Below are positions 276 to 19,325 of a stretch of 22,938 bases of DNA, piece after piece. Within the stretch, counting starts at the first letter, position 1; each line of letters begins with the position of its first letter. The notes under the pieces were generated by a model. The model worked only from the letters and a program-made list of their open reading frames with translations. It did no database searches and was not told the origin of the DNA. The position numbers were made by a program, and so were the translations under genes. The stretch is from Clostridiales bacterium. GTDB lineage: Bacteria; Bacillota; Clostridia; Christensenellales; Aristaeellaceae. The stretch covers positions 1-22,938 of the forward strand of contig JAAZEI010000196.1 in NCBI GenBank assembly GCA_012512355.1, given 5' to 3'.

Positions 276-2471
276 TTATTTGATCAGCAGGAAAGCCAGC
301 AAGGCGACCAAAACCAAGCAAAAGAGAATTAAATCAAAGGAGAGTGTGTGCAAGAGACGGCGCACGTTGTCCTGTGCGCTGGTCCAGATGGCAGCGTACA
401 TAAACACATAATACTGGGGCTCTTTAGGACGCATACCAAACAATCTCCGCAGGCCCGATGTGAGAATATCAGCGCTATGTCCTAAGAAATAAGTCAGCCG
501 ATTTCCGGACGGAACCTGCCAGTCACTTTCATATTTCCTCTTGAGCACTGTGCGCAAAAGTATGAACGAAAAGCCATCCACTATCCCTTCAAGAAGCCGG
601 GACAGAAATGTAAATACATTGAAGAGAGAGGGAATTAAGACCTTATCCATTATCCCTTCAAGAAGCCGGGACAGAAATGTAAATACATTGAAGAGAGAGG
701 GAATTAAGACCTTATCCATCAATTTATCAAAGGGAGTAAAGACAAGAAAACCAAGCTTGATCAAAGCTTTGACAAGCGGTCTGTATATTTTGTCTTCAAG
801 ATCCAGCCAGACAGGCCAGCGGTTGAGGTAAAGTGAGACGCCATGCGCATCTTTTCCCATCAGCCACAAGCGCACCATTGTAAAATAAAGGATGACGCCC
901 AGCAAGATGGATTTGCCTGCGCCAACGAGATTGACCAAGGCCAGATAATACACTTCGTGCGCTGGTTTATGGGCAAGCAGGAAAGGCAGCGAACGGTTTG
1001 CCAGACCCGTCAGGAAGCCCTGAGGCCGAAGCCCTAACAAAAAGAGAACAAGAGCCGAACCGCCCAGCGCAGCCAGGGACAGCGGGCTCATCGAGGAAGC
1101 CATTTTGTCAAATTCATCTTGACGGCTTGGGTGCTTTTCAATGAAGAGGACGACAAACAGCTTGATCATATAACAAAGAGTCAGCCCGCCGGTGATGACA
1201 AACAGCCACTCCGCTCCCTGATACCACAAAGCGCTATGACCTGATAGCTTAAGATGCGCGATATACTCAATGATGCTCTCGTGCAGCAGCGTCTTTGACG
1301 CATAGCCGCTGAAAAAAGGTACGCCGCTGATGGAGGCAGCGCCTGTCAGAAAGATCAGCATCAAGCCCGGCCGTTTGCGGCCATATCCCCTGATATCATT
1401 GAGATTCAGCGCGTGCACATTGAGGTAAAACACGCCGGCTGCCATGAATAAAACAAGTTTGATGAGGCTGTGGTTGAGCATATGCAGAACGGTTCCCTGC
1501 GCCGCCAGCGCATTGTGCTCACCCAACAGGCTCTGCATCCCGATACCAAAGAGAATAAACCCGATCTGGCTCATGGAAGAGCAGGCCAGTGTACGTTTCA
1601 AATCCACAGAAAACAATGCAAGCAAAGCGCCCAGCATCATGTTGATGAGCCCCACACCCAATAGCAGATTGCCCCAAAGCAAATCATCAAAGAACAGGCG
1701 GGTCGAGATCACCAGGATGCCAAAAATGCCAACCTTGGTTAAAATACCGCTGAGCAGCGCGCTTGCCGGAGCGGGGGCTACCGGGTGTGATTTTGGCAGC
1801 CAGACATGAAGGGGAAACATGCCGGCTTTTGCGCCAAAGCCGGCCAAAATCAGGGTACCGGGCAGGTAAAGGCTGGTGCGGTCCACTTTGCGCATAGCCT
1901 CCGCCAGCTCACTGAAGTGAAGCGTGCCTATTTTCACATGCAGCATCATCAGACCCATCAGCATGCTCATGCCACCCAGGATGGCGATGGAAAGGTAGGT
2001 TTGTCCCGCCCGCATCGCCTCGGGCGTCTCTTCATGGATGACCCAGCAATAGCTGGTGAAGGAGAGAATTTCAAAAAACAAGAAGGCTGTCACTAAATCA
2101 TCTGAGAGAAAGACACCCAATGTAGCGCCTAAAGTGAGCAAGGTAAACAGGCAGTAGCGCCCCTGGGCATGTCCATGCTTCATATATTGTATAGAGAACA
2201 GCGAGGTCATCAGCCACATGAAAATAGCGACCAGGGCATATAAAGTTCTAAAACCGTCCCCTGTCAGGTTAAAGGTAAGCCCAATGATACCTTGCAGCGA
2301 AAATTTAGCTTGCTGCGATGTGAGAAATAAACTACCTGCCAGTATGAGTTCCGCCAGGGTGACGGCAATCATCAAAATGATACCCCAGCTCCATTTCTTT
2401 TTGGATATTGTATAAGCCGGCACTGCCGCGAGAAGAGGCAGAGCGACCAGGACAGGCAAAATCAGATTCAT
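276..2471 (-). CDS. Mrp/Mbh-type antiporter large subunit (NuoL/MrpD family) with long C-terminal extension
   Basis: This is a 731-residue polytopic membrane protein of the proton-conducting transporter (NuoL/M/N, MrpA/MrpD) family and the last gene of the operon. The ion-path residues of the family are visible: Glu134 in FFFEILSF, Lys215 and His222 in the GFGAKAGMFPLHVWLP segment, and Lys246 in SGILTKVG. The family core occupies roughly residues 1-490. The remainder adds a hydrophobic stretch near 505-535, a long region of amphipathic and hydrophobic helices (about 545-640), and a last membrane helix at 710-731, recalling the lateral-helix extension of NuoL. Residues 585-607 are repeated exactly at 608-630. 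The ATG is preceded by a strong AAGGAGG, and the gene starts 15 bases after the preceding stop. It probably forms one proton or Na+ half-channel of the complex. The exact orthologue (MrpA N-terminal part versus an extra MrpD) cannot be fixed by eye. Confidence 0.88.
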   Translation of the reverse strand: MNLILPVLVALPLLAAVPAYTISKKKWSWGIILMIAVTLAELILAGSLFLTSQQAKFSLQGIIGLTFNLTGDGFRTLYALVAIFMWLMTSLFSIQYMKHGHAQGRYCLFTLLTLGATLGVFLSDDLVTAFLFFEILSFTSYCWVIHEETPEAMRAGQTYLSIAILGGMSMLMGLMMLHVKIGTLHFSELAEAMRKVDRTSLYLPGTLILAGFGAKAGMFPLHVWLPKSHPVAPAPASALLSGILTKVGIFGILVISTRLFFDDLLWGNLLLGVGLINMMLGALLALFSVDLKRTLACSSMSQIGFILFGIGMQSLLGEHNALAAQGTVLHMLNHSLIKLVLFMAAGVFYLNVHALNLNDIRGYGRKRPGLMLIFLTGAASISGVPFFSGYASKTLLHESIIEYIAHLKLSGHSALWYQGAEWLFVITGGLTLCYMIKLFVVLFIEKHPSRQDEFDKMASSMSPLSLAALGGSALVLFLLGLRPQGFLTGLANRSLPFLLAHKPAHEVYYLALVNLVGAGKSILLGVILYFTMVRLWLMGKDAHGVSLYLNRWPVWLDLEDKIYRPLVKALIKLGFLVFTPFDKLMDKVLIPSLFNVFTFLSRLLEGIMDKVLIPSLFNVFTFLSRLLEGIVDGFSFILLRTVLKRKYESDWQVPSGNRLTYFLGHSADILTSGLRRLFGMRPKEPQYYVFMYAAIWTSAQDNVRRLLHTLSFDLILFCLVLVALLAFLLIK
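582..719 (-). repeat. perfect 69-bp tandem duplication inside the terminal antiporter subunit
   Basis: Bases 582-650 and 651-719 are identical over all 69 positions. The unit is 23 codons, so the frame is kept. It encodes the peptide starting MDKVLIPSLF and ending RLLEGI at residues 585-607 and again at 608-630, adding one hydrophobic/amphipathic helical unit to the C-terminal extension. The absence of any silent difference indicates a recent duplication or continuing slippage. Confidence 0.97.
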
Positions 2472-2486
2472 ACCAGCCGCACCTCC

Positions 2487-3929
2487 TTATATTGCGCCAT
2501 AAGCAGTTCGCGTCAGAAAATCAAGCAAAGGACCGCTGTAAAAACTCAAGACGACCATGAGAATACTCAGCCCCACCAGTGTCACTTTAAAACTGGCTTC
2601 CACCGGCATGATTTCCCTGACTTGTACAGGTCTTGTATACATGGTGACTGCCGGAACCAGCAGATAAATACCTGTGAGCAGCGAACTGATCAGCAGCGCC
2701 GCTACACCGGCAATAGGTAAAAATCCACCAAGGGAGAAGGCCGCTTGGGCCAAAGACCATTTGCTGATAAAGCCAACCAGCGGCGGAATGCCGGTCATTG
2801 CCAGCGCGCCCAGGGTGAAAACGCCGCTCAAAAGACCCAAAGGCCCGCCCAGACCGCGCAGTTCATTCACATAATAAGCATGAGCGCGCTTGTTGAACAC
2901 ACCGCAGGTGAGAAACAGGGTGATTTTCATCAGGGCATGAAAAACCAGATGCATCAGCCCTGCTGCCAGCCCCTGCGGGGTCAGGAGCATCGCCCCAAAC
3001 AGGATATAAGAAAGATTGGATACTGTTGAATAAGCCAGCCTGCGCTTGAGGTGCTTTTCTTTCAAGGCCATGGAACAGCCATATACAATGGTAAATGAAG
3101 TCAGTACCAGGGGAATATATTGCGCGTAACTTCCCTTGATCAGGCTGATGCCAAAGCTAAAATAGGTGACCCGGATGATGGCAAAAACGCCGGATTTGAC
3201 TACCGCCACAGCATGCAGCAAAGCAGTCACAGGGGTCGGGGCGACAGCGGCGGTCGGCAGCCAGCCATGTACAGGAAATACAGCGGCTTTGACGCTGAAC
3301 CCGAGAAAACACAGCAAATATCCCAGGCGCAGCTGGCTAGTATGCACCAGGCTGATCCCCTTGAACAGCCCTCCGGGAACAAATGCGGTTGTCCCGCCAA
3401 AATACACCAAATATACCAGACCAATGAAGGCAAAGGCAGACCCGCCCAGTGAATAGTACAGATACTTTAGTCCGGCAGAAATTGATTTCGTGCTTCCCCC
3501 ATGCATCACCAAGGGCACTGTGGACAGGGTCATGATTTCATAAAAGACATACAGTGTGAGCAGATTGGCACTCATCGCAATGCCCAGGGTCACACCATAA
3601 CTCATCAGAAAGAATGAAAAAAAGGTTGTTTGCTTTTCCATGTCCTTCATATAGCTGATGGCATACAGCAAAGAAATCGGCCACAGCAAAGCGATGATGG
3701 CAGAAAACACACGGCCCAGATCATCCAGCTTCAAGGTAAGATTCAAAATGTCGTTGAGGCTGACAATTTTCAGTATTGTCGTGTCTGAAAACAGCGCGAT
3801 TGCTACAAGTACACTCGTTGCAAGTGCAGACGCCATCAGATAGAAGTTGCGCGCACCTGTTTTCCATTTAAATAAGGGCAGCAATGCACCCAGCAGGATA
3901 GGAAGTACAACGGCTAAAAATAATATCAT
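2487..3929 (-). CDS. Mrp/Mbh-type antiporter subunit, third MrpD-like paralogue
   Basis: A roughly 480-residue integral membrane protein of the NuoL/M/N-MrpA/D family. Counted from a possible TTG start at 3941, the conserved Glu is residue 135 (YVFYEIMTLS), the TM7 Lys is 218 (GFSVKAAVFPVHGWLP), and a further Lys is 249 after APTPVTALLHA, a NuoL/MrpA-like signature rather than the HPVAPSPASA of its neighbour. I prefer the ATG at 3929: TGAGGG lies about six bases upstream and overlaps the stop codon of the preceding gene, so translation is likely coupled. The TTG at 3941 has no good ribosome-binding site. The protein presumably supplies another ion half-channel in the same complex as the flanking paralogues. 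Confidence 0.88.
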   Translation of the reverse strand: MILFLAVVLPILLGALLPLFKWKTGARNFYLMASALATSVLVAIALFSDTTILKIVSLNDILNLTLKLDDLGRVFSAIIALLWPISLLYAISYMKDMEKQTTFFSFFLMSYGVTLGIAMSANLLTLYVFYEIMTLSTVPLVMHGGSTKSISAGLKYLYYSLGGSAFAFIGLVYLVYFGGTTAFVPGGLFKGISLVHTSQLRLGYLLCFLGFSVKAAVFPVHGWLPTAAVAPTPVTALLHAVAVVKSGVFAIIRVTYFSFGISLIKGSYAQYIPLVLTSFTIVYGCSMALKEKHLKRRLAYSTVSNLSYILFGAMLLTPQGLAAGLMHLVFHALMKITLFLTCGVFNKRAHAYYVNELRGLGGPLGLLSGVFTLGALAMTGIPPLVGFISKWSLAQAAFSLGGFLPIAGVAALLISSLLTGIYLLVPAVTMYTRPVQVREIMPVEASFKVTLVGLSILMVVLSFYSGPLLDFLTRTAYGAI

Positions 3930-3937
3930 AGCATCCC

Positions 3938-5425
3938 TCAAAACAGTGAGCCGGCAAGTTTATTAAACAAATCAATCATGAAGCCCGGAAAAATGCCGAG
4001 AATGAGAGTCGCCAAAGTCAGCATCGAGATGGGGACAAGCATCATGAGGGAGGGGTCATTCTTCTTTTGTAAAGCAGGCGCAGCATCCCCTGGCGATATT
4101 CCGCCAAAGAAAGCGGATACGCTGATGGGCAGCAGATAACCGGCTGTCAAAATAGCAGAAATCAGCAGCACAACGGGCACCAGCCAGCTGAAAACGGCCG
4201 CCCCCGATACCAGTGCGCCTTCTGCGATATACCACTTGGCGATAAAACCGCCAAGGGGCGGGATGCCTACCAGAGAAATGCCGCAGATTGTGAACAGCCA
4301 CATCGTCCAGGGCATACTTTTGCCCAGGTGACGCATGTCATCCACCTGCGTGAATCCTGTCTTATAGATGATGGCGCCAGCGCACAGGAAGAGTGCGTCT
4401 TTTGTCAGCGCGTGAAATACCATCTGCAGCAAGGCGCCGCCCAGGGCCATTGTATCGAGCAGAAAAATACCGCAAAGAACATAACTGACCTGAGAAACGC
4501 TGGAGTAAGCCAGGCGCTTTTTAAGCGTTTTTTCTTTCAATGCGAGCATAGAACCCATAAACACAGTCGTCGCAGCACACCCGAGCAGCGTCCACTGCAC
4601 CCAGGTGCCTCGCAGATAATCAGGGCCTACGACATAGAAGATAATACGGAATATGCACAGCACGCCTGCTTTTGTAATCACGCCAGATAGCACTGCGCTG
4701 GCGGGAGAGGGAGCTACCGGATGGGCTGTAGGCAGCCATCCATGCATGGGAAACATGCCAGCCTTCGTCCCAAATCCAATCAGCGTGATGACAAGAATAA
4801 CTTGAAAAGCGGTGTGTGACAGGGTCAGCTGCCCTGTCAGCAAGGAGCCGCCCTCGACAAAATAAGGAGAGGCGATGTTTGGCGTGAGCATAAAGATGCC
4901 AAGAAGCCCCATGGTGGCGCCGGCGACAGAATAAATCAGGTATTTGATGCCCGCGGCAACAGCCTCCTTGGTTCTGCTGTGCAAAACCATGGGCATTGAC
5001 AGAAGGGTCATCAATTCAAAGAACAGATACATGGTCACCATGGTGGCCGACAGGGTGAGCGCTATGAGTGAGGCCATGGTTATTAAATAAAATGCATAGT
5101 AGGACTTTTCGTTTTGTTCATGACTCATGTAGCTGAAGGAGTAAAATCCAGCAATTGTCCACATCAGCGCCATGAGGACTGAAAAAATGCGGCTTGTGGC
5201 ATCTGAGCGCAAAGCGATGGGCAGCTGCTTGGTCATCTCAAAGAGAATGAGGGTACGCTCAGCGTCCAGCGCGATTATAAGAACCACTATACATTCCAGC
5301 ACCATCACAGCGCCGACAAAGAGGCAGCGGTCCTGCCGGCTTTGGTTCAGCCAGGGGAGATAAACCACCATCAGCGAGCCGGCGGCAGGCAGCAGGACAG
5401 CAACGAGCAAGAGCAAACCTTCCAT
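3938..5425 (-). CDS. mrpD: MrpD-like antiporter subunit, second paralogue
   Basis: A 495-residue polytopic membrane protein of the proton-conducting transporter family. Key residues are Glu137 (YLFFELMTLL), Lys221 and His228 (GFGTKAGMFPMHGWLP), and Lys252 within SGVITKAG after the HPVAPSPASA motif. This pattern is the typical MrpD/MbhH one, and the length matches that family (about 490-500). The ATG has AAGGAGG upstream and follows the preceding gene after 16 bases. MrpD subunits carry one ion-translocation path in Mrp Na+/H+ antiporters. Which of the three roughly 490-residue paralogues is the true MrpD orthologue is not decidable by eye; this one has the most canonical motif. Confidence 0.9.
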   Translation of the reverse strand: MEGLLLLVAVLLPAAGSLMVVYLPWLNQSRQDRCLFVGAVMVLECIVVLIIALDAERTLILFEMTKQLPIALRSDATSRIFSVLMALMWTIAGFYSFSYMSHEQNEKSYYAFYLITMASLIALTLSATMVTMYLFFELMTLLSMPMVLHSRTKEAVAAGIKYLIYSVAGATMGLLGIFMLTPNIASPYFVEGGSLLTGQLTLSHTAFQVILVITLIGFGTKAGMFPMHGWLPTAHPVAPSPASAVLSGVITKAGVLCIFRIIFYVVGPDYLRGTWVQWTLLGCAATTVFMGSMLALKEKTLKKRLAYSSVSQVSYVLCGIFLLDTMALGGALLQMVFHALTKDALFLCAGAIIYKTGFTQVDDMRHLGKSMPWTMWLFTICGISLVGIPPLGGFIAKWYIAEGALVSGAAVFSWLVPVVLLISAILTAGYLLPISVSAFFGGISPGDAAPALQKKNDPSLMMLVPISMLTLATLILGIFPGFMIDLFNKLAGSLF

Positions 5426-5441
5426 TTAACAGCAATCCTCC

Positions 5442-6938
5442 TTAGGAAAAAGTCATTAGGCCCGTTTGAATTACCCGCAAGATCGGCTCAGAGCCAATGC
5501 CCAGGTAGATAATGAGCAGCATTGAAGCAAACAGCGCGACAAGCGCATAGGGCGGTATCTTTTCAGCCGGAGGATAGGCAATATCCCCAGGAGGACGCCT
5601 GTAGATTGAAACCACGGTGTGCAAAAAATAAACGCCATTGAGCAAGGTGCTGATGGCCAGCGCAATCAGCACCAGCGAGCGCATCCATCCTCCAAACACC
5701 ATGCCCGAAATTGCCAGGTTTAGTTTCACGATGAACCCGCCGGTGAATGGGATACCTACCATGCTCATGGCAGCCACAGTAAAAACAATGCCGGCAGGGA
5801 CGTTTCTATAACCTGCGCCATGGAGATAACGGAAGCGTTTGCGGTCTCCCGAGACATTGATCAGTTCATAGGTAGCGAGGAAAAGCAGAGATTTGACAAC
5901 GGAATGAACCAGCATTTGAAAAAGTGCCGCTTCCACGCCTGCTGTGGTCCCTATGCCCAGGCCCATATAAATATAGCCGATTTGAGCCACAGATGAATAA
6001 GCAATCATGCGCCGGATATCTCGCTGGCTGATGGCCATTACAGAGGCCAAAATCATCCCGCTCACGCCGCAGACAAACAGAAAGGGGCTGATGTTCTGTG
6101 AAATGATGACATCCATTCCAACCACACGATAATAGAACTTAATCAGCACAAAAATGTATGTTTTGCTGATGATCCCGCTGAGGATGGCGCTGCTCAGCGG
6201 CGGGGCGTAGGCATAGGTGTCAGGGGCCCAGCTATGAAAGGGAAACATGGCACTTTTGATGGCCAGGCCCGCAGTGATGAGCGCGATGACCACCGTCAGC
6301 GGGCCCGCGTACTCACCGGTATCTACAATGGCGCGTACAGCCTCCCCCAGCGGTTCCATCAGAAGATGACCGGTGATGCCATAAAGCATGGAGATACCCA
6401 AAAGCAGCAAACCCGAACCAAACAGATGCATGATCATGTACCGGGTGATCGCGACGAGCGTATGCCCGTTTTGACGCACAACAACCAAGGCACAGGAGGC
6501 GATGGTCAGAATCTCGATAAAAACATAGACGGTGAACAAGTCATTGGTGTAAATCAAAACCAATACGGCTGCCAGCGCCAGATCCACCATGATACAGTAG
6601 AGGTTAACTTTTTTCTCGCTGACAAAGGCAGGGGAATGGCGCAGACCGCCAATCAGAGAAAGGCACAGCACCACAGAAAAGCCTGTAGCCATCAGTGCCT
6701 CCAGGCGGCCAATGCGAATTTCATTTCCCCAGGGCGATGGAAAGTGCCCCATCATGTAGGGATAGGCACTGTCTAGCCTAAGGGTCAGGGAAAGCGTCAA
6801 AACACTCAGCACCACAACGGATCCCGAAACAAAGAAAGTCAGCGCTTTTGCCGCTTTTGGCTTGAGAATCGACGTGACGATGCCTGCGATCATGCACAGG
6901 ATAATACTAAAAAAAGGGAAGTTTTGTGTTAATGTCAT
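5442..6938 (-). CDS. mrpD: MrpD/MbhH-like antiporter subunit, first paralogue
   Basis: A 498-residue polytopic membrane protein and the first of four large channel-type subunits after MrpC, the position held by MrpD in mrp operons and MbhH in mbh operons. Conserved residues are Glu142 (VYVFIEILTIAS), Lys228 and His235 (GLAIKSAMFPFHSWAP), and Lys259 (SGIISKTY). The segment after His235 reads DTYAYAPPLSSAILSG rather than HPVAPSPASA, as in some Mbh/Mbx-type homologues. Start ATG at 6938 overlaps the TGA of mrpC by one base and has GGGGAGG upstream. Predicted role: proton or Na+ translocation in the membrane arm. Confidence 0.9.
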   Translation of the reverse strand: MTLTQNFPFFSIILCMIAGIVTSILKPKAAKALTFFVSGSVVVLSVLTLSLTLRLDSAYPYMMGHFPSPWGNEIRIGRLEALMATGFSVVLCLSLIGGLRHSPAFVSEKKVNLYCIMVDLALAAVLVLIYTNDLFTVYVFIEILTIASCALVVVRQNGHTLVAITRYMIMHLFGSGLLLLGISMLYGITGHLLMEPLGEAVRAIVDTGEYAGPLTVVIALITAGLAIKSAMFPFHSWAPDTYAYAPPLSSAILSGIISKTYIFVLIKFYYRVVGMDVIISQNISPFLFVCGVSGMILASVMAISQRDIRRMIAYSSVAQIGYIYMGLGIGTTAGVEAALFQMLVHSVVKSLLFLATYELINVSGDRKRFRYLHGAGYRNVPAGIVFTVAAMSMVGIPFTGGFIVKLNLAISGMVFGGWMRSLVLIALAISTLLNGVYFLHTVVSIYRRPPGDIAYPPAEKIPPYALVALFASMLLIIYLGIGSEPILRVIQTGLMTFS

Positions 6939-7312
6939 CAGGCGTCCTCCCCTTTGGCAAGCAGCGCGATTTCATCTATGTTCAGCGTATGGTATCGCCG
7001 GTACAAACGTATCGTCAGTGCCAGCATGATTCCTGTAAAGCTGACGGCGACCACAATGCCCGTCAGCACCAGACCCGAGGGAATAGGGTTGATATAGGCC
7101 GCAGCTTCTGTAACACCCTCAGCAATGATTGGCGCTTTGCGGCCGCTGATGTACCCCATGGAAGCCAGAAACAGATAAATGGCCGTATCCATGATGTTCA
7201 GTCCAATGATTTTTCGAATGAGGTTACGCTGGAGCAGCAAAATGGTAAACCCAATGCAAAACAAAATAACAGACACCGTCTGTTCCAGGTTTTGATACAA
7301 TAATTGCCACAT
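6938..7312 (-). CDS. mrpC: Mrp antiporter subunit C (NuoK-like)
   Basis: A small (124-residue) protein with three hydrophobic segments resembling MnhC/MrpC, MbhG and complex I NuoK. The central stretch LLLQRNLIRKIIGLNIMDTAIYL matches the MnhC pattern in which basic residues precede a second membrane helix. I choose the ATG at 7312 because GAGGAAG lies seven bases upstream. A GTG at 7327 would give 129 residues and a four-base overlap (GTGA) with the stop of the preceding gene, and is also possible. MrpC sits beside MrpA/MrpD-type subunits in the antiporter complex and is required for its assembly. Confidence 0.87.
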   Translation of the reverse strand: MWQLLYQNLEQTVSVILFCIGFTILLLQRNLIRKIIGLNIMDTAIYLFLASMGYISGRKAPIIAEGVTEAAAYINPIPSGLVLTGIVVAVSFTGIMLALTIRLYRRYHTLNIDEIALLAKGEDA

Positions 7313-7323
7313 TGCCATCTTCC

Positions 7324-8343
7324 TCACAGACCGCCCTTACGAAAAAGCGCATAAAATATGTACATCGTACAGGCCACCACCAGCCCCACTGCAATGTTCA
7401 GCGGCATAATCAGCCCAGCGGAGATGATAGCCCCCGGTGTTCCCAAAGGAATGCCGCTATCAAGGCCATTTGCCCCGAAGTAAAAAGAATAGGTTTTAGC
7501 AATGCCATAAAAACTCAGGGAAAAGAAACTAACCATAACAAATGTTTTGTTTGTAAAGAACCTGCCGGATTTTTCAAATCCGAAGGCATTCAGATAGAGA
7601 ATCAGCCCCGCGCTGATAATGGCTCCTCCGGAAAAACCTCCGCCAGGCGACAGATGACCATTGAGGATGATATAAATGCCAAACAGCAAGATAATGGGTG
7701 TGAGAATCTTTGCGCTGCCCTGCAGAATACGGTCGCTCCTGGGTTCATAATGACGGTCATCTGATTCAGCGGCGATGAGTTCCTCAACCGGGGAGCCATC
7801 TTTATTTCGGTCGATACGCAATAAAATGAGCACAGCGCAGGCGGCAAGAAATAGGACAGTGGCCTCCCCCAGGGTATCAAAGGCACGATAATCCAGAATC
7901 ATGCCGGCGACAATATTGACAGCACCGGTCTCATCCAGGCCTTTTTCTATATAACGCTGGGAAACTTCATTGACGCCGGGTGCCTGAGTGTCTCCAAACC
8001 GCGGCATCAGGGCAACTGTTTCCAGGAGAAAGAATATCATCATGATGCTTAAGACCAAAGCCAGGATCACATGCAGTGCGGAAAGTACTTTTCGTCCTCG
8101 GGTTCTGGCCCACACCAGCACATTGTATTGATCCAATCGGTCTAGCGCCAGGGTGCGCTCATGTTTGCGGGTTTCTACCGCTTCTTCCTGGGCTTCCAGC
8201 AGGGCTTCATAGGATTGGTGCGGTTCGCTGTCCTGGCTGATCTGGCTGATGATTTCGTCATCCAGCGCCAAAAAACCCTCATGAAACCATTTGCGGATAC
8301 GAGCCTGCGGGCGCGTCTGCCAGTCACTTCTGCGCTTGCTCAT
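7324..8343 (-). CDS. mrpB: fused MbhE-like and MrpB (MnhB) subunit with cytoplasmic N-terminal extension
   Basis: A 339-residue fusion. Residues 1-84 are charged and lack a membrane segment. Residues about 85-175 are MbhE-like (corresponding to the C-terminal part of bacterial MrpA), with a membrane helix at 87-110 and the signature NIVAGMILDYRAFDTLGEA at 143-161. Residues about 205-335 are an MnhB/MrpB domain containing GSAKILTPIILLFG, NGHLSPGGGFSGG and GTPGAIISAGLIMPLNIAVG. In Pyrococcus mbh clusters the two domains are separate proteins (MbhE and MbhF). The ATG has AAAGGAG nine bases upstream and overlaps the preceding gene by 20 bases. The N-terminal extension is unexplained and could be a cytoplasmic docking element. 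Confidence 0.88.
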   Translation of the reverse strand: MSKRRSDWQTRPQARIRKWFHEGFLALDDEIISQISQDSEPHQSYEALLEAQEEAVETRKHERTLALDRLDQYNVLVWARTRGRKVLSALHVILALVLSIMMIFFLLETVALMPRFGDTQAPGVNEVSQRYIEKGLDETGAVNIVAGMILDYRAFDTLGEATVLFLAACAVLILLRIDRNKDGSPVEELIAAESDDRHYEPRSDRILQGSAKILTPIILLFGIYIILNGHLSPGGGFSGGAIISAGLILYLNAFGFEKSGRFFTNKTFVMVSFFSLSFYGIAKTYSFYFGANGLDSGIPLGTPGAIISAGLIMPLNIAVGLVVACTMYIFYALFRKGGL

Positions 8344-8590
8344 GCTCGCTGTCTCCTTTGATGGCGTGAATTTTCTTAAGTGTTACAAAAAACAGAACGC
8401 TGGTGATGCCGGCCCCTACGGCCGCCTCAGTGATGGCAAGGTCCGGGCTTTGTAAAAACATCCAAATCACTGCCATGATCAGGCTATAGGCCATATAAAC
8501 AATCAGCGAAGTCAGCAGGTTGCGGGTGAAGCTAACAGCCAGGGCGCAGACAATCAGCATGCCCAGAAGGATGATATGCACAAAGTTCAT
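8324..8590 (-). CDS. MbhD-like subunit (DUF4040, MrpA C-terminal part)
   Basis: An 88-residue membrane protein with three hydrophobic helices and the DUF4040/MbhD signature SPDLAITEAAVGAGITSVLFFVTL. In canonical bacterial Mrp this domain lies in the C-terminal part of the roughly 800-residue MrpA; here, as in archaeal Mbh, it is a separate gene. The start at MNFVHIIL (8590) makes an ATGA overlap with mrpG. A longer reading from 8638 would add 16 residues inside mrpG and is unlikely. It contributes to the core that links MrpC to the small subunits. Confidence 0.85.
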   Translation of the reverse strand: MNFVHIILLGMLIVCALAVSFTRNLLTSLIVYMAYSLIMAVIWMFLQSPDLAITEAAVGAGITSVLFFVTLKKIHAIKGDSEHEQAQK

Positions 8591-8928
8591 AGATTGCCCT
8601 CCCCTGACCTGTCGGTTTTTGGGGGCAGCTGCTGCCACATCGGGTTGATGGTAACTTCAAGCCTGGCAATCAGGTGACTGCTGACAGGGCTTGAAAACCA
8701 CAGGAAGGCAATAATGAGCAGCAGCTTCAGCGCCATCCATATGTCGGGTGAACTAAAGGTCAGGCCCAAAAGACAAAAGAGAATCCCCAGGGTATCGCCC
8801 ATGGCAGCAGCGTGCATACGGTTCAATACGTAGTCAAATTTATATACGCCGAACACCGCGGTGATCAAAATCATCAGCCCGCTGAGCAGGAAGCCGGCAG
8901 TCAGGATGAAACGCAGCCATTCAAGCAT
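8587..8928 (-). CDS. mrpG: Mrp antiporter subunit G
   Basis: A 113-residue protein with three predicted membrane helices and the MnhG/MrpG hallmark GVYKFDYVLNRMHAAAMGDTLG around residues 24-45, followed by a short cytoplasmic tail. The start MLEWLRF at 8928 overlaps the end of mrpF by eight bases; the open frame extends 25 codons further upstream but that part has no MnhG character. The stop overlaps the next start as ATGA. MrpG is a structural subunit of the antiporter's small-subunit cluster. Confidence 0.9.
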   Translation of the reverse strand: MLEWLRFILTAGFLLSGLMILITAVFGVYKFDYVLNRMHAAAMGDTLGILFCLLGLTFSSPDIWMALKLLLIIAFLWFSSPVSSHLIARLEVTINPMWQQLPPKTDRSGEGNL

Positions 8929-9241
8929 GATCCTGCCCTTCCTTTCCCTGATTTGCCTGACGCTCCAGGAACACACCCATGTAGACCTTGCACAGCACCA
9001 CAACCGCCAGAAAGCTGATCATCGCGTAAAGAATTGAAACATCTATAAGATAGCCTTCCTTCCACATCGACGCAATCACGCCCGCCATGATGATGATCTG
9101 GGTTCCAATCATGTTAATGGCGACAATGCGGTCCGCGATGGAAGGGCCTTTTACTGCGCGGATAAAGCAAGCGATGAGCAGAAGAGATATTACACCCAGG
9201 ACAATCATATAAAGAGTGTCGTAAGCATTTTGTATGTTCAT
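8921..9241 (-). CDS. mrpF: Mrp antiporter subunit F
   Basis: A 106-residue, three-helix membrane protein. The motif GPSIADRIVAINMIGTQ (residues about 31-47) is the typical MnhF/MrpF signature, and the third helix and charged tail also fit. The ATG at 9241 overlaps the TGA of mrpE as ATGA. In MrpF the conserved Asp of the ADR motif lies in the membrane and is important for antiport. Confidence 0.92.
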   Translation of the reverse strand: MNIQNAYDTLYMIVLGVISLLLIACFIRAVKGPSIADRIVAINMIGTQIIIMAGVIASMWKEGYLIDVSILYAMISFLAVVVLCKVYMGVFLERQANQGKEGQDHA

Positions 9242-9729
9242 CGTGTCACCGCCTTTTCCCAGACAGCTTCTTTGTTAAGCAGACGTTTTTCAAACTCACT
9301 GCTGCGCAGCCCTTCTTCCATGCTTTCATCAAGGCAATGTACCAGGTATTCATTTTCTTCAAGGTGGACTGTGATGGTGCCTGGAGTCAGGGTGATACAG
9401 TCCGCCAGGACGATTCGGGCGGTATTTGTCTTCAGTTTTGTATTTAGTGTCACCAGCTTTGGCACCACCACATCCCTGTCTGTGAGGATCAGACGCATCA
9501 CAGCGAAATTGGCCAGGGTGATCTCTTTAATCAGCAGCCAAACATAACGCAGATAACCCGGAACCTGCGCTGCGATCTTCCATTGATTTCTCAGGGTAAA
9601 CTTTGGGGTGATAAATCGCTGAATAAACCAGGCCAAGGCAGTAGAAATGACCAGGCCAAAGGCAGCCAGTTCCCAGGTCAGCTTCCCGTTGAAGATAATC
9701 CACAGGAAGAACAAAGCCAGCGCGATCAA
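9238..9729 (-). CDS. mrpE: Mrp antiporter subunit E
   Basis: A 163-residue protein with two N-terminal membrane helices (about residues 1-13 and 20-37) and a cytoplasmic domain carrying the MnhE signature LADCITLTPGTITV at about residues 108-121. It is the first gene of the operon. The start codon is TTG (9727-9729), supported by AAGAAGGTGA immediately upstream; no ATG gives the full family length. Transcription starts from the consensus promoter described at 9782-9809. Confidence 0.9.
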   Translation of the reverse strand: MIALALFFLWIIFNGKLTWELAAFGLVISTALAWFIQRFITPKFTLRNQWKIAAQVPGYLRYVWLLIKEITLANFAVMRLILTDRDVVVPKLVTLNTKLKTNTARIVLADCITLTPGTITVHLEENEYLVHCLDESMEEGLRSSEFEKRLLNKEAVWEKAVTR

Positions 9730-10616: not shown

Positions 10617-10632
10617 TGTTTCACGTGAAACA
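10617..10632. promoter_or_regulatory. parS site 1 (ParB/Spo0J binding)
   Basis: TGTTTCACGTGAAACA is an exact match to the chromosomal parS consensus bound by ParB/Spo0J. The palindrome extends to 20 bp (10615-10634). It lies in the spacer between the FMN reductase stop and a bidirectional terminator. parS sites cluster around the replication origin and nucleate ParB spreading and SMC loading. Confidence 0.93.
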
Positions 10633-12586: not shown

Positions 12587-12602
12587 TGTTTCACGTGAAA
12601 CA
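12587..12602. promoter_or_regulatory. parS site 2 (ParB/Spo0J binding)
   Basis: TGTTTCACGTGAAACA is a second exact parS match, 1,970 bases from the first. Its palindrome spans 20 bp (12585-12604) and directly abuts the stop codon of the ABC permease gene, before that operon's terminator. Confidence 0.93.
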
Positions 12603-14437: not shown

Positions 14438-15547
14438 TTACTCGGAGACGCGCACAGGTAAAACAAGATAGGTGTATCGATTGCCGCTCACAGGACAAAT
14501 AACGCAGGGACTGACATTGGTGTTAAAGCGCATTGCAAAATCAGCTGTATCGATATTTTTGATCACATCCATCAGATACCTGGCATTAAACGCAATGTTC
14601 AAAGGCGAACCCTCAAAATCAATGGACATTTTTTCAACCACATTGGAAGCCTCTGCATTGGCCATAATGACCAGCCCATCCTCATCAATTTTAAGCTTCA
14701 GCAGGTTGTTGCTTCCCCTGGCAATCAGCGCCGCGCGCTCGATGCCCGACATGATGCGGGATTTGTCCGCGCGCAGAGCAGTTGTCCAGTTGGTGGGAAG
14801 AATTTGTTTATAATTGATGTATTCACCCGGAATCAGGGGACTGTATACCTTGGTTTTGCCAAAGGATGCCATCATGTGGGTATTTGAACAGTTTATACAC
14901 ACAGGCTCTTGGCTATCTTCGACCATGCGGGCAATTTCACCAATGATCGATCCGGGCAGGATAGAAGAATATAACTCTTTGTCCTGAGGCATCTCATTTT
15001 TATTTTCGACCCGCTGCATGGCCAGACGAAATCCATCCATGCAGACAAAACGAATATCTTCAGCTGTTGTTTCCATCAAACATCCTGTGAGAATACGCCT
15101 TGTCTCATCATTGGAAACGGCAAAAATAATGCGGCTGACAGCTTCTTTCAGACTGCTTTGAGCCAATTGCGTGACATAAACGGATTTCACATCCTCAATA
15201 TCAGGAAAATTTTCGGCATCCAGGCACATCATGGTGGTGGTGCTGCCCTGCCCTGAAATGGTGGCAGTCTGTGCTCCTTCCACATTGATGACAATGTCGC
15301 CTTCCATGTTGCGCATCAGTTCAAACAGAAGTTTGGCCGGCAAAAGCGCGCATCCATCCTCCTGGATGATGGCATTCATCATTGTTTTGATGCTCATCTC
15401 GCCGCTGGTGCAGCATAATTGAACACCATCCTCCATCGTCTGAATAAAAACCCCTTCGTAGGCCGGTTTGACAGACCTGGGCAGGAGTGCCCTTGTGACC
15501 AAATTAAGGCTGTGATTGATGTCGACCGAGCTAACTGTAAAACGCAT
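14438..15547 (-). CDS. dnaN: DNA polymerase III beta sliding clamp
   Basis: A 369-residue protein with the three-domain clamp layout and family motifs: an N-terminal MRFTVSSVDIN strand, LPAKLLFELMRNMEGD near 70-85, GQGSTTTMMCLDAENFPDIE near 100-120, and the C-terminal YLVLPVR typical of beta clamps. It tethers replicative polymerase to DNA. I start at the ATG at 15547, preceded by AAAGGA; the open frame extends 28 codons upstream but encodes a low-complexity leader produced by the TAG repeat of the origin-like region. dnaA is not upstream, and recF and gyrB do not follow, unlike in most Firmicutes. Confidence 0.95.
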   Translation of the reverse strand: MRFTVSSVDINHSLNLVTRALLPRSVKPAYEGVFIQTMEDGVQLCCTSGEMSIKTMMNAIIQEDGCALLPAKLLFELMRNMEGDIVINVEGAQTATISGQGSTTTMMCLDAENFPDIEDVKSVYVTQLAQSSLKEAVSRIIFAVSNDETRRILTGCLMETTAEDIRFVCMDGFRLAMQRVENKNEMPQDKELYSSILPGSIIGEIARMVEDSQEPVCINCSNTHMMASFGKTKVYSPLIPGEYINYKQILPTNWTTALRADKSRIMSGIERAALIARGSNNLLKLKIDEDGLVIMANAEASNVVEKMSIDFEGSPLNIAFNARYLMDVIKNIDTADFAMRFNTNVSPCVICPVSGNRYTYLVLPVRVSE

Positions 15548-15972
15548 GCTGATTCGTCCTTTCGCTGATGCAGTGGTAGTAATAAAGGGTAGTAGTAGTA
15601 GTAGGGGCTGTGGATTGCGTGGATAAGGCATCCGGCATCCATGGCCTGCTGAGTTTTACCTCTTGATAAGCTGTTGATAAAAGAGAAGGATTTTTGTATA
15701 GCCAGTGGATATACAGGACCTTGGGGATAAAAGTAACAAAATTCGCGGAGAGAATGCTTTTAATTTGTTATCCTGAATTGAATGATCAGGAAGGTTTTAT
15801 AAAAAGTGATAATTTCAGACGGATTGTTTTAATTTATGCCAATGATTCTTGCTTTGTCCACTTCATCCCCATTGGACAATCAACAGGCTGTTGGTAACTT
15901 GGTCTCATAGCCGCCCACTTTTTTAGAAGTTTGACTCGAATCATCCACAGGTATATCCACAATTGAGTTCGT
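15548..15972. other. candidate replication origin (oriC-like DnaA-box cluster) upstream of dnaN
   Basis: A 425-base non-coding stretch between dnaN and nagB. At least five 9-mers match the DnaA box TTATCCACA/TGTGGATAA at eight of nine positions: 15618-15626, 15672-15680, 15722-15730, 15941-15949 and 15953-15961. Weaker matches lie at 15609-15617, 15661-15669, 15704-15712 and 15768-15776. The middle (about 15750-15840) is AT-rich. dnaN next door and two parS sites within 5 kb fit an origin. Against it, dnaA is not adjacent, no box is a perfect consensus, and the AT-rich stretch is not directly next to the TAG repeats. It may be the active origin or part of a split one. Confidence 0.6.
15590..15626. 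promoter_or_regulatory. DnaA boxes, GC tract and DnaA-trio-like TAG repeats
   Basis: Five TAG trinucleotides (15590-15604) are followed by GGGC (15605-15608), TGTGGATTG (15609-15617) and, directly abutting, CGTGGATAA (15618-15626). Degenerate TAG-TAA-TAA continues at about 15577-15585. Read on the other strand this is two DnaA boxes, a GC-rich tract and TAC/CTA trios, the arrangement described for the basal unwinding system of Bacillus-type origins. Confidence 0.55.
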
Positions 15973-16692
15973 TTATAACAGTGATGCTGCCTGAGGGTCA
16001 AGCAGGATGACCGTATCAGGATGAATCCTCAGGATGCTTGCCTGTACCTGAGGGTCCAGTTCCCCTGTCACCATCGCGCGTACAGCTTCGGCTTTGGTTT
16101 CACCCAGAGCGACCAGGACGATTTTACGTGCTTTCATGATGCCGCCGGCTCCCAGTGAAATGGCCTGGGTGGGGACTTTTTCATCAGCTTTAAAGAAACG
16201 TTTGTTGGCTTCGATGGTGCTTTTTGTCAGATTGACAATTTGCGTTCCATAGTGAAAGACACTGTCGGGTTCATTAAAACCAATATGGCCATTTTGCCCA
16301 AGACCTAAAAACTGGATATCGATGCCGCCGGCTGCTTCGATTTCTTTGTCATAGCGGCCGGCTTCTTCTAAAAGATCTTTGGCATCACCGCTGGGGACAT
16401 GCGTTTTTTTCATATTGATGTGATCAAAGAGCTGTTCTTTCATAAAGCGGTGGTAGCTGCAGGCATGGTCGGCGCTGAGGCCGACATATTCATCCAGGTT
16501 AAAGCTGGTGCATCCTGAGAAATCCAGCAGGCCGCTCTGGTGCATGTCAATAAGCTGCTGATAGGTTTCTATGGGGGTAGAACCGGTTGCAAGTCCCAGC
16601 ACAGCATCAGGTTTTGAAAGAATACAGGCGCAAAATAAGCTTGCCGCGGCAAGGCTGGCCTGGTCCTTGTTTTCATAGATGTGTACAATCAT
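15973..16692 (-). CDS. nagB: glucosamine-6-phosphate deaminase
   Basis: A 239-residue NagB-type enzyme that converts glucosamine-6-phosphate to fructose-6-phosphate and ammonia. Visible motifs: substrate loop GLATGSTP (33-40), FNLDEYVGL with catalytic Asp67, and GLGQNGHIGFNEP (130-142) with His136 and Glu141. The position equivalent to E. coli Asp141 is Asn134, the usual form in Gram-positive NagB. The length is that of the short, non-allosteric Firmicutes type. The ATG has GGAGG seven bases upstream. It stands alone, without nagA. Confidence 0.95.
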   Translation of the reverse strand: MIVHIYENKDQASLAAASLFCACILSKPDAVLGLATGSTPIETYQQLIDMHQSGLLDFSGCTSFNLDEYVGLSADHACSYHRFMKEQLFDHINMKKTHVPSGDAKDLLEEAGRYDKEIEAAGGIDIQFLGLGQNGHIGFNEPDSVFHYGTQIVNLTKSTIEANKRFFKADEKVPTQAISLGAGGIMKARKIVLVALGETKAEAVRAMVTGELDPQVQASILRIHPDTVILLDPQAASLL

Positions 16693-18446: not shown

Positions 18447-19325
18447 TTATTCCACTGGATCAAAGGGTTTGTAGACAGAGGTTTTGAAGATCTCAAAGAT
18501 GGTGTCATAGCGCGGGTGTTCCCGCCATCCGCCCAAGGTACCCGCAGAGACGCCGTTGATAAGACAGCCTGGCAAGTGCTCCTGGATTTCCCTGAGGGTG
18601 GCGCGTTTCATGGGACCGGCATTATAACCATTGCTCTGGTAAAGCCATAGCCGTTCCAGGTTTTTTAGTGCGTAAAGAGGAGAGTAATCGCTGACATAAT
18701 TATATCCCAGGTTGATATCCAGAAGGTTGGAAAGGCCGGTAAGAGGGGAAATATCACGAATTTTGTTGCGGAATATTTCCAGATACTCCAGCTGTTTGAG
18801 ATTGCTTAACACACTGATGTCTTCAATCTGATTCAACGCCAGGATGAGGACCTTGATGCCGGTGAGGTTCTCAATAAAAGAGATATCCGTGATGGCATTA
18901 TGGCCCAGGTCAAGGGCTTCAAGTCGGGTACAATATCTAAGGACATCAAAGTCACTGCTGGTGTGGGTAGGAGATTTGTTGTTGTGCAGGGTTGAAAAGG
19001 CCGTCATATCTGTTCTGAGACGATGCTCCGCGATTTGTATGCTGAAACCAAAAAACACATCGGGATAAGCCCGGGTGAGCGCCGACATATCCGCTTTTTC
19101 CAGCGGCCAGTCATACAGCAATACTTCCTGCAGGTTCGTAAAACGCTCTAGGGATGCGATAAGGGTCTGTGCTGTGAGAACTTCCTGCCCTTCCAGGTCG
19201 ATTACGGCGATGTCGGGTGAAAGGTTTTGCAAATAAGCCTCCGCGCCTCCTGCAAAAACCAGAGAACTAAAAACAAAACCGAAGATCAGACAGACGATCA
19301 TCAGGTAAAATGCACTTTTTTTCAT
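18447..19325 (-). CDS. secreted leucine-rich-repeat protein, internalin-like
   Basis: A 292-residue exported protein. Residues 1-25 are a signal peptide (MKKSAFYLMIV...SSLVFA) with likely cleavage after VFA. The N-terminal domain (about 30-130) resembles the cap of clostridial LRR proteins. Residues 135-222 hold four 22-residue repeats of the LxxLxLxxNxIxDISxLxxL type, beginning LEALDLGHN, IKVLILALN, LEYLEIFRN and LLDINLGYN, and a fifth degenerate copy starts at 223. No cell-wall sorting signal, membrane anchor or lipobox is present, so it is probably released or held non-covalently. AAAGGAGG precedes the ATG. Such repeats usually bind proteins or glycans; the partner is unknown. Confidence 0.85.
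   Translation of the reverse strand: MKKSAFYLMIVCLIFGFVFSSLVFAGGAEAYLQNLSPDIAVIDLEGQEVLTAQTLIASLERFTNLQEVLLYDWPLEKADMSALTRAYPDVFFGFSIQIAEHRLRTDMTAFSTLHNNKSPTHTSSDFDVLRYCTRLEALDLGHNAITDISFIENLTGIKVLILALNQIEDISVLSNLKQLEYLEIFRNKIRDISPLTGLSNLLDINLGYNYVSDYSPLYALKNLERLWLYQSNGYNAGPMKRATLREIQEHLPGCLINGVSAGTLGGWREHPRYDTIFEIFKTSVYKPFDPVE

Follow-up and report, generated by a model that had tools for sequence, protein, structure and literature searches.

A likely chromosome origin beside dnaN and apart from dnaA in a Clostridia lineage

Where does replication begin in a chromosome in which the spacer beside dnaN resembles an origin and dnaA lies elsewhere? Origin prediction in Firmicutes relies on dnaA or on the dnaA-dnaN pair, and the rnpA-rpmH-dnaA-dnaN context appears to be conserved in this phylum (PMC7561715). 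The window analyzed here (22,938 bp) is the complete contig C97 of a metagenome-assembled genome (G000; 2,004,592 bp, 367 contigs, completeness 79%), and a dnaN search against named genomes brought up mainly Clostridia MAGs as relatives, one of them titled Christensenella sp. UBA5327. As a first-pass annotation of the window had pointed out, the spacer is flanked by dnaN and, on its other side, by nagB; dnaA is not directly upstream of dnaN, as it is in a canonical origin, and what is likely the genome's own dnaA was located on contig C249. On the evidence presented below, the nagB-dnaN spacer is very probably the chromosome origin (oriC), with its initiator gene on another contig; this assignment is a prediction from sequence comparison that is well supported and short of proven.

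The spacer was searched for DnaA boxes, defined as sequences with at most one mismatch to TTATCCACA (consensus from PMC8287927). This search resulted in five boxes within 425 bp, against an expectation of 0.11 based on the remainder of the window; in 2000 Markov copies of the spacer, the mean was 0.14 boxes and no copy reached five, and other 425-bp windows taken in 25-bp steps contained at most one. The positions of these and the other features are collected in Table 1. Because most relatives' alignments begin only at about residue 20–29 of the listed dnaN ORF, which starts at 15631, the dnaN start is most likely 15547, and the box pair and trios described next therefore sit upstream of dnaN.

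Table 1. Features of the nagB-dnaN spacer and its surroundings (positions in the window)
Feature	Position	Strand	Remarks
Likely oriC: nagB-dnaN spacer with DnaA-box cluster and unwinding module	15548..15972		box count, conserved core
dnaN, DNA polymerase III beta clamp	14438..15547	-	TIGR00663, E 2.6e-71; start from alignments
Putative unwinding element and dnaN leader	15548..15589		function predicted
Five DnaA-trios, (CTA)5	15590..15604	-	(TAG)5 on plus strand, 3'-GAT-5' x5
GC cluster GCCC, separates boxes from trios	15605..15608	-	mostly conserved in aligned loci
DnaA box 2, abuts box 1, CAATCCACA	15609..15617	-	2 mismatches
DnaA box 1 of unwinding module, TTATCCACG	15618..15626	-	1 mismatch
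DnaA box TTATCAACA	15672..15680	-	1 mismatch
DnaA box TTATCCCCA	15722..15730	-	1 mismatch
DnaA box TCATCCACA, nagB side	15941..15949	+	1 mismatch
DnaA box ATATCCACA, nagB side	15953..15961	+	1 mismatch
nagB, glucosamine-6-phosphate deaminase	15973..16692	-	borders spacer opposite dnaN
parS TGTTTCACGTGAAACA	12587..12602		perfect palindrome
parS TGTTTCACGTGAAACA	10617..10632		perfect palindrome

The basal unwinding system (BUS) has been described as tandem DnaA boxes followed by at least three DnaA-trios, with 13 bp as the most common spacer and 3'-GAT-5' as the preferred trio (PMC8287927). Read on the minus strand from 15626 to 15590, the spacer contains TTATCCACG, CAATCCACA, GCCC, and (CTA)5 in direct succession, so that box 1 lies 13 bp and the near box 4 bp from the first trio. 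Under the published BUS rule (a DnaA box with at most two mismatches, a tandem partner with at most four, and at least three 3'-NAN-5' trios no more than 16 bp from the box), the locus qualifies with abutting boxes of one and two mismatches and with five 3'-GAT-5' trios 13 bp from the better box. A strict search for a pair, a gap, and at least three trios gave a single hit in the window, at this locus, and 60 simulated windows yielded no hit. The first-pass annotation had described at least five eight-of-nine box matches, two abutting boxes (15609-15626), GGGC, and five TAG trinucleotides (15590-15604), and had likened their order to the Bacillus-type unwinding system; the box count was recovered, every coordinate holds, and the likeness is borne out by the rule. 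One property speaks somewhat against an origin: the AT content after the trios (15550-15589) is only 55%.

Conservation of the module was examined among relatives. In eight aligned loci, TCCACA of box 2, CCCTACTACT, and TACTACT of the trios are invariant. With up to one mismatch allowed, the core pattern CCACANNCCYTACTACTAC has a single match in the 2.0-Mb G000 assembly, at the nagB-dnaN spacer, and 67 matches in 200 genomes of the family, spread over 62 of them. All 30 exact matches are at a dnaN start and on the dnaN strand; of the 37 one-mismatch matches, 20 are at a dnaN start, 11 are elsewhere, and six belong to genomes for which no dnaN is listed. The reversed pattern gave about 86 matches at up to one mismatch in the same 200 genomes (summed by hand), more than the 67 of the pattern itself, and the genome-wide count was therefore dropped as evidence and only the exact matches and their position at dnaN were used. 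The pattern was designed after inspecting dnaN spacers, and at least nine of the 30 exact matches come from those same sequences (eight G genomes and G159, which is L012).

A BUS precedes dnaN in 23 of 38 rows, compared with 10 of 760 simulated copies and none of the 38 opposite strands; this count uses our own version of the published rule, and the 38 rows include one record twice. An alternative trio rule gave 22 of 38 rows versus 3 of 760 simulated copies. Among the 26 dnaN rows not shown to be linked to dnaA, one of which (G026) is of ambiguous linkage, 18 pass either rule by hand count, and the strict rule is failed by G026, G013, G008, G006, G029, G030, G031, and G035; despite this failure, CCACANNCCYTACTACTAC is matched exactly in G026 and with one mismatch in G030. 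The dnaN upstream regions of 25 unlinked rows together contain 76 DnaA boxes against 2.82 expected, and no box with up to one mismatch was detected upstream of dnaN in L006 and L008. The boxes and trios had been expected to persist in close relatives, and this holds for the pair-trio core and fails for the full set, since of the five boxes with up to one mismatch G001 keeps one and G003 keeps two. The conserved part is thus the pair-trio core, and the full five-box set is not conserved.

The location of dnaA was then compared across the family. Of the 200 genomes, 132 had both genes placed among the matches listed; among these matches, dnaA and dnaN were adjacent in 16 of 132, shared a contig at a distance of 7.7 kb to 1.38 Mb in 10, and were on different contigs in 106, of which 78 had at least 2 kb of contig at the neighbor's expected place. 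The 7.7-kb case (G220) depends on a dnaN truncated by a contig end. The largest distances, 1.21–1.38 Mb, were found in four near-complete genomes of one genus (G186 and G208 with one contig each, G117 and G156 with two each); in G186, dnaA lies 1.32 Mb from dnaN, inside a chromosome arm. When "not adjacent" is mapped as a label onto a 44-row dnaN tree, four changes are required, versus 14.4 in shuffles, and the unlinked rows of the family fall into two groups, one of 21 rows plus the row of ambiguous linkage (support 88/81) and one of three (G029, G031, G035). Such a tree would fit two losses of adjacency, or one loss and a regain. With adjacency in only 16 of 132 genomes among the matches listed, the earlier proposal that rearrangement separated the origin from dnaA fits the gene order in relatives.

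The separation could in principle be an artefact of metagenome assembly: G000 is fragmented into 367 contigs, and its 5.1-kb contig C137 (L103) carries a second dnaA-dnaN pair in canonical order. This explanation is almost certainly wrong, because the genes are equally separated in relatives, including the single-contig genomes G186 and G208, and because nagB is upstream of dnaN in seven of 17 other dnaN loci searched (L005, L006, L007, L008, L012, L096, and L099). The C137 pair was considered as the true canonical origin of G000 and set aside as a likely contaminant, its DnaN being only 29% and its DnaA 40% identical to the C97 and C249 proteins. Composition does not mark C137 as foreign, since with a GC content of 0.481 it differs little from C97 (0.475) and C249 (0.471). 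The contig also carries an LTXXQ-like ORF that is below the Pfam cut-off.

If the spacer is the origin, GC skew is expected to switch there, and the first-pass annotation had proposed a skew minimum at this site as a check. In the window, the cumulative skew reaches its minimum at 15457, 90 bp inside dnaN; because G000 is in 367 contigs, its skew is not traceable genome-wide. In the single 3.39-Mb contig of G186, the cumulative skew along 220 kb is lowest at 2,744,282, 0.1 kb inside dnaN (which runs from 2,744,174), and across twenty 20-kb samples the sign changes at dnaN and a second time somewhere from 0.87 to 1.02 Mb. The negative skew continues through the dnaA of this genome, at 1,423,266 and roughly 70–77% down the arm. 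In G029, the skew switches at 62–64 kb, where dnaN occupies 63.6–64.7 kb and dnaA is at 16 kb; its samples are positive up to 2.02 Mb, negative from 2.2 Mb, and -0.001 at 3.8 Mb. Among ten dnaN contigs with at least 60 kb of sequence, the minimum was within 3 kb of the dnaN start in five, representing four genera (G186, G029, G030, G018, and G159), and away from dnaN in the other five (G019, 5.7 kb; G209, about 20 kb; G028, about 49 kb; G117, about 50 kb; G204, about 124 kb); G117, of the same genus as G186, and G204 show a skew step at dnaN despite the distant minimum. Of 13 shorter dnaN stretches, only three (L108, L010, and L012) had the minimum within 1 kb of dnaN; two of these are already counted among the long contigs, L108 coming from G030 and L012 being the G159 record, and in L011, a near twin of L010, the minimum is not at dnaN. 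It is likewise not at dnaN in the 37–46-kb contigs of G173, G090, and G119. In G186, the best chromosome, the skew minimum is at dnaN and not at dnaA, and in half of the ten long contigs it lies away from dnaN.

The two parS sites named in the first-pass annotation are perfect palindromes, and their position supports an origin in the spacer. No further perfect parS was found in the G000 assembly, in which C28 carries a single one-mismatch site. In G186, G208, G117, and G156, which belong to one genus, all parS sites found (at most one mismatch) are 1.2–1.9 kb from dnaN and none is near dnaA. A set of 16 unlinked family genomes with a parS and a placed dnaN, taken from 60 relatives, was read by hand; parS was on the dnaN contig in nine (in G029 dnaA is there too), on a dnaA contig without dnaN in none, and on neither in seven. 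The distance from parS to dnaN is 0–7 kb in G204 and G173; distances of about 23 kb in G019 and G029, 23–32 kb in G090, and 37 kb in G159 were counted against the origin, and no parS was found in the stretches of G209 and G119 that were searched. In other bacteria DnaA acts as a gene regulator, and the module is within the predicted dnaN leader, as would be expected if the boxes served only DnaA-mediated transcriptional control of dnaN or nagB with no role in initiation. An ordered pair-gap-trio module, the skew switch, and the clustering of parS would then be left unexplained, and we regard a purely regulatory role as very unlikely.

The regions upstream of dnaA bear on two further explanations. 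These regions are rich in DnaA boxes (55 across 20 genomes, where 2.26 are expected), and in seven of the 20 dnaA loci (L052-L057 and L068) two perfect boxes on the same strand are 14–15 bp apart. Both observations are what would be seen if the true origin were beside dnaA and the boxes at dnaN were left over from an earlier dnaA-dnaN intergenic region. A BUS, on the other hand, was found upstream of dnaA in only one of 20 genomes (G011), the trio module being missing in the other 19; the skew minimum was within 3 kb of dnaA in none of six dnaA stretches (G186, G117, G204, G029, G023, and G030), and the skew runs on through dnaA in G117 as in G186. The parS counts given above also favor dnaN, the genes next to dnaA differ within a genus, and the paired boxes fit a candidate autoregulatory site. 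An origin at dnaA is accordingly a most improbable alternative to one in the nagB-dnaN spacer.

The presence of boxes at both genes would also be explained if the origin were bipartite in trans, with the dnaA boxes and the dnaN unwinding module cooperating through long-range looping, and opening of the C. difficile origin in vitro is reported to have required both halves (PMC7561715). A constant loop is implausible given that dnaA and dnaN on the same contig are 7.7 kb to 1.38 Mb apart in 10 genomes among the matches listed; the helper role can fall to boxes inside the dnaN spacer, and the presence of a BUS in only one of 20 dnaA regions, together with the absence of a skew minimum near dnaA in the six stretches, speaks against a second half there. 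No dnaA lies between two box clusters, as would be the case in a bipartite oriC. The suggestion in the first-pass annotation that the spacer is one half of a bipartite origin therefore found little support, and we give cooperation in trans very little credence; the origin-like, BUS-type layout with an unlinked dnaA that this annotation described is supported by conservation, by skew in some relatives, and by the position of parS.

By analogy to B. subtilis, DnaA expressed from the distant gene would bind the box pair at 15609-15626, aided by the other boxes of the spacer, and would then polymerize leftward onto the five trios (15590-15604) along the plus strand. The duplex would be opened toward dnaN, where the helicase would be loaded, and the parS pair, located 3 and 5 kb away, may help to segregate new origins. 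DnaA binding, unwinding, and the start of replication at the spacer are thus predicted steps.

Reports on B. subtilis locate its unwinding region between dnaA and dnaN (PMC6669920) and describe an element (incC) that resembles the present module in its tandem boxes, 4-bp GC gap, 3'-GAT-5' trios, 13-bp spacer, and position upstream of dnaN (PMC8287927, PMC6669920). The spacer differs in having nagB rather than dnaA as its upstream neighbor, and unwinding here is predicted only. A very similar trio sequence, there CACCTACTACTATTACTACTATGA, is upstream of dnaN in oriC2 of C. difficile, whose dnaA lies between oriC1 and oriC2; the spacer described here has neither dnaA nor a linked oriC1 (PMC7561715). 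Canonical rnpA-rpmH-dnaA-dnaN origins of Firmicutes have the dnaN-side unwinding module in common with this locus, in which dnaA is not adjacent. Since the module corresponds to that half of the usual Firmicutes bipartite origin which lies in the dnaA-dnaN intergenic region (incC or oriC2), the locus would retain just the dnaN half of such an origin, together with nearby boxes. The arrangement also suggests that a bipartite origin cannot be reduced beyond its dnaN-side module.

The closest parallel in arrangement is that of cyanobacteria, including S. elongatus PCC 7942, in which oriC is described beside dnaN, at the skew switch and apart from dnaA (PMC7198777, PMC4674748, PMC6323995); in N. 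punctiforme, dnaA and dnaN are given as about 52 kb apart (PMC5987646). The cyanobacterial box is TTTTCCACA, which is absent from the nagB-dnaN spacer; this locus instead has a BUS with long trio runs, its relatives belong to another phylum (Bacillota), and its family still has members with adjacent dnaA and dnaN. The spacer would therefore work like a cyanobacterial dnaN-side oriC in arrangement without being a member of that group, and the two arrangements presumably arose independently. In the open-access literature (titles and beginnings of abstracts in the best-listed part), we found no description of this arrangement in Clostridia or Christensenellales, so that a dnaN-side origin with a distant dnaA, known in cyanobacteria, appears to be new for Bacillota.

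With moderate confidence, we lean towards a broader reading in which, in a large Clostridia lineage, dnaA departed from the dnaA-oriC2-dnaN unit, probably on two occasions within a single family, and came to lie as far as about three quarters down a chromosome arm, leaving the dnaN half as a self-sufficient origin; the rule would be that the dnaN side keeps the origin when the pair is split, as it does in cyanobacteria. If true, the dosage of the initiator gene relative to the origin would drop when forks fire. In this family, dnaA as a marker would misplace the origin by up to 1.38 Mb. The arrangement uncouples the locations of the unwinding module and the initiator gene, which are normally confounded, and the family may provide natural test cases for whether dnaA must be origin-proximal for proper control of initiation.

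The dnaA on C249 stands before hrcA-grpE-dnaK-dnaJ (L102, 2659-9135), with a perfect CIRCE element between dnaA and hrcA and the same gene order in G003. Membership of dnaA in this heat-shock operon was considered and rejected, as the CIRCE element and a terminator-like hairpin (identified by eye) intervene and G001 has no hrcA match by its dnaA. The ATPase and helix-turn-helix domains of the C249 DnaA (L001, 964-2346) were found with Pfam; the N-terminal DnaA_N domain, present in the C137 DnaA, was not found at an E-value of 0.001, and domain I of the C249 protein may have diverged. Elsewhere in the window, in which no Rfam family reached its gathering score, rex, an ABC transporter, and galT are encoded together with a Mrp-type cation/proton antiporter operon with four large NuoL/M/N-like subunits (276-9729) and a leucine-rich-repeat protein (LRR_4, LRR_8; 18447-19325).
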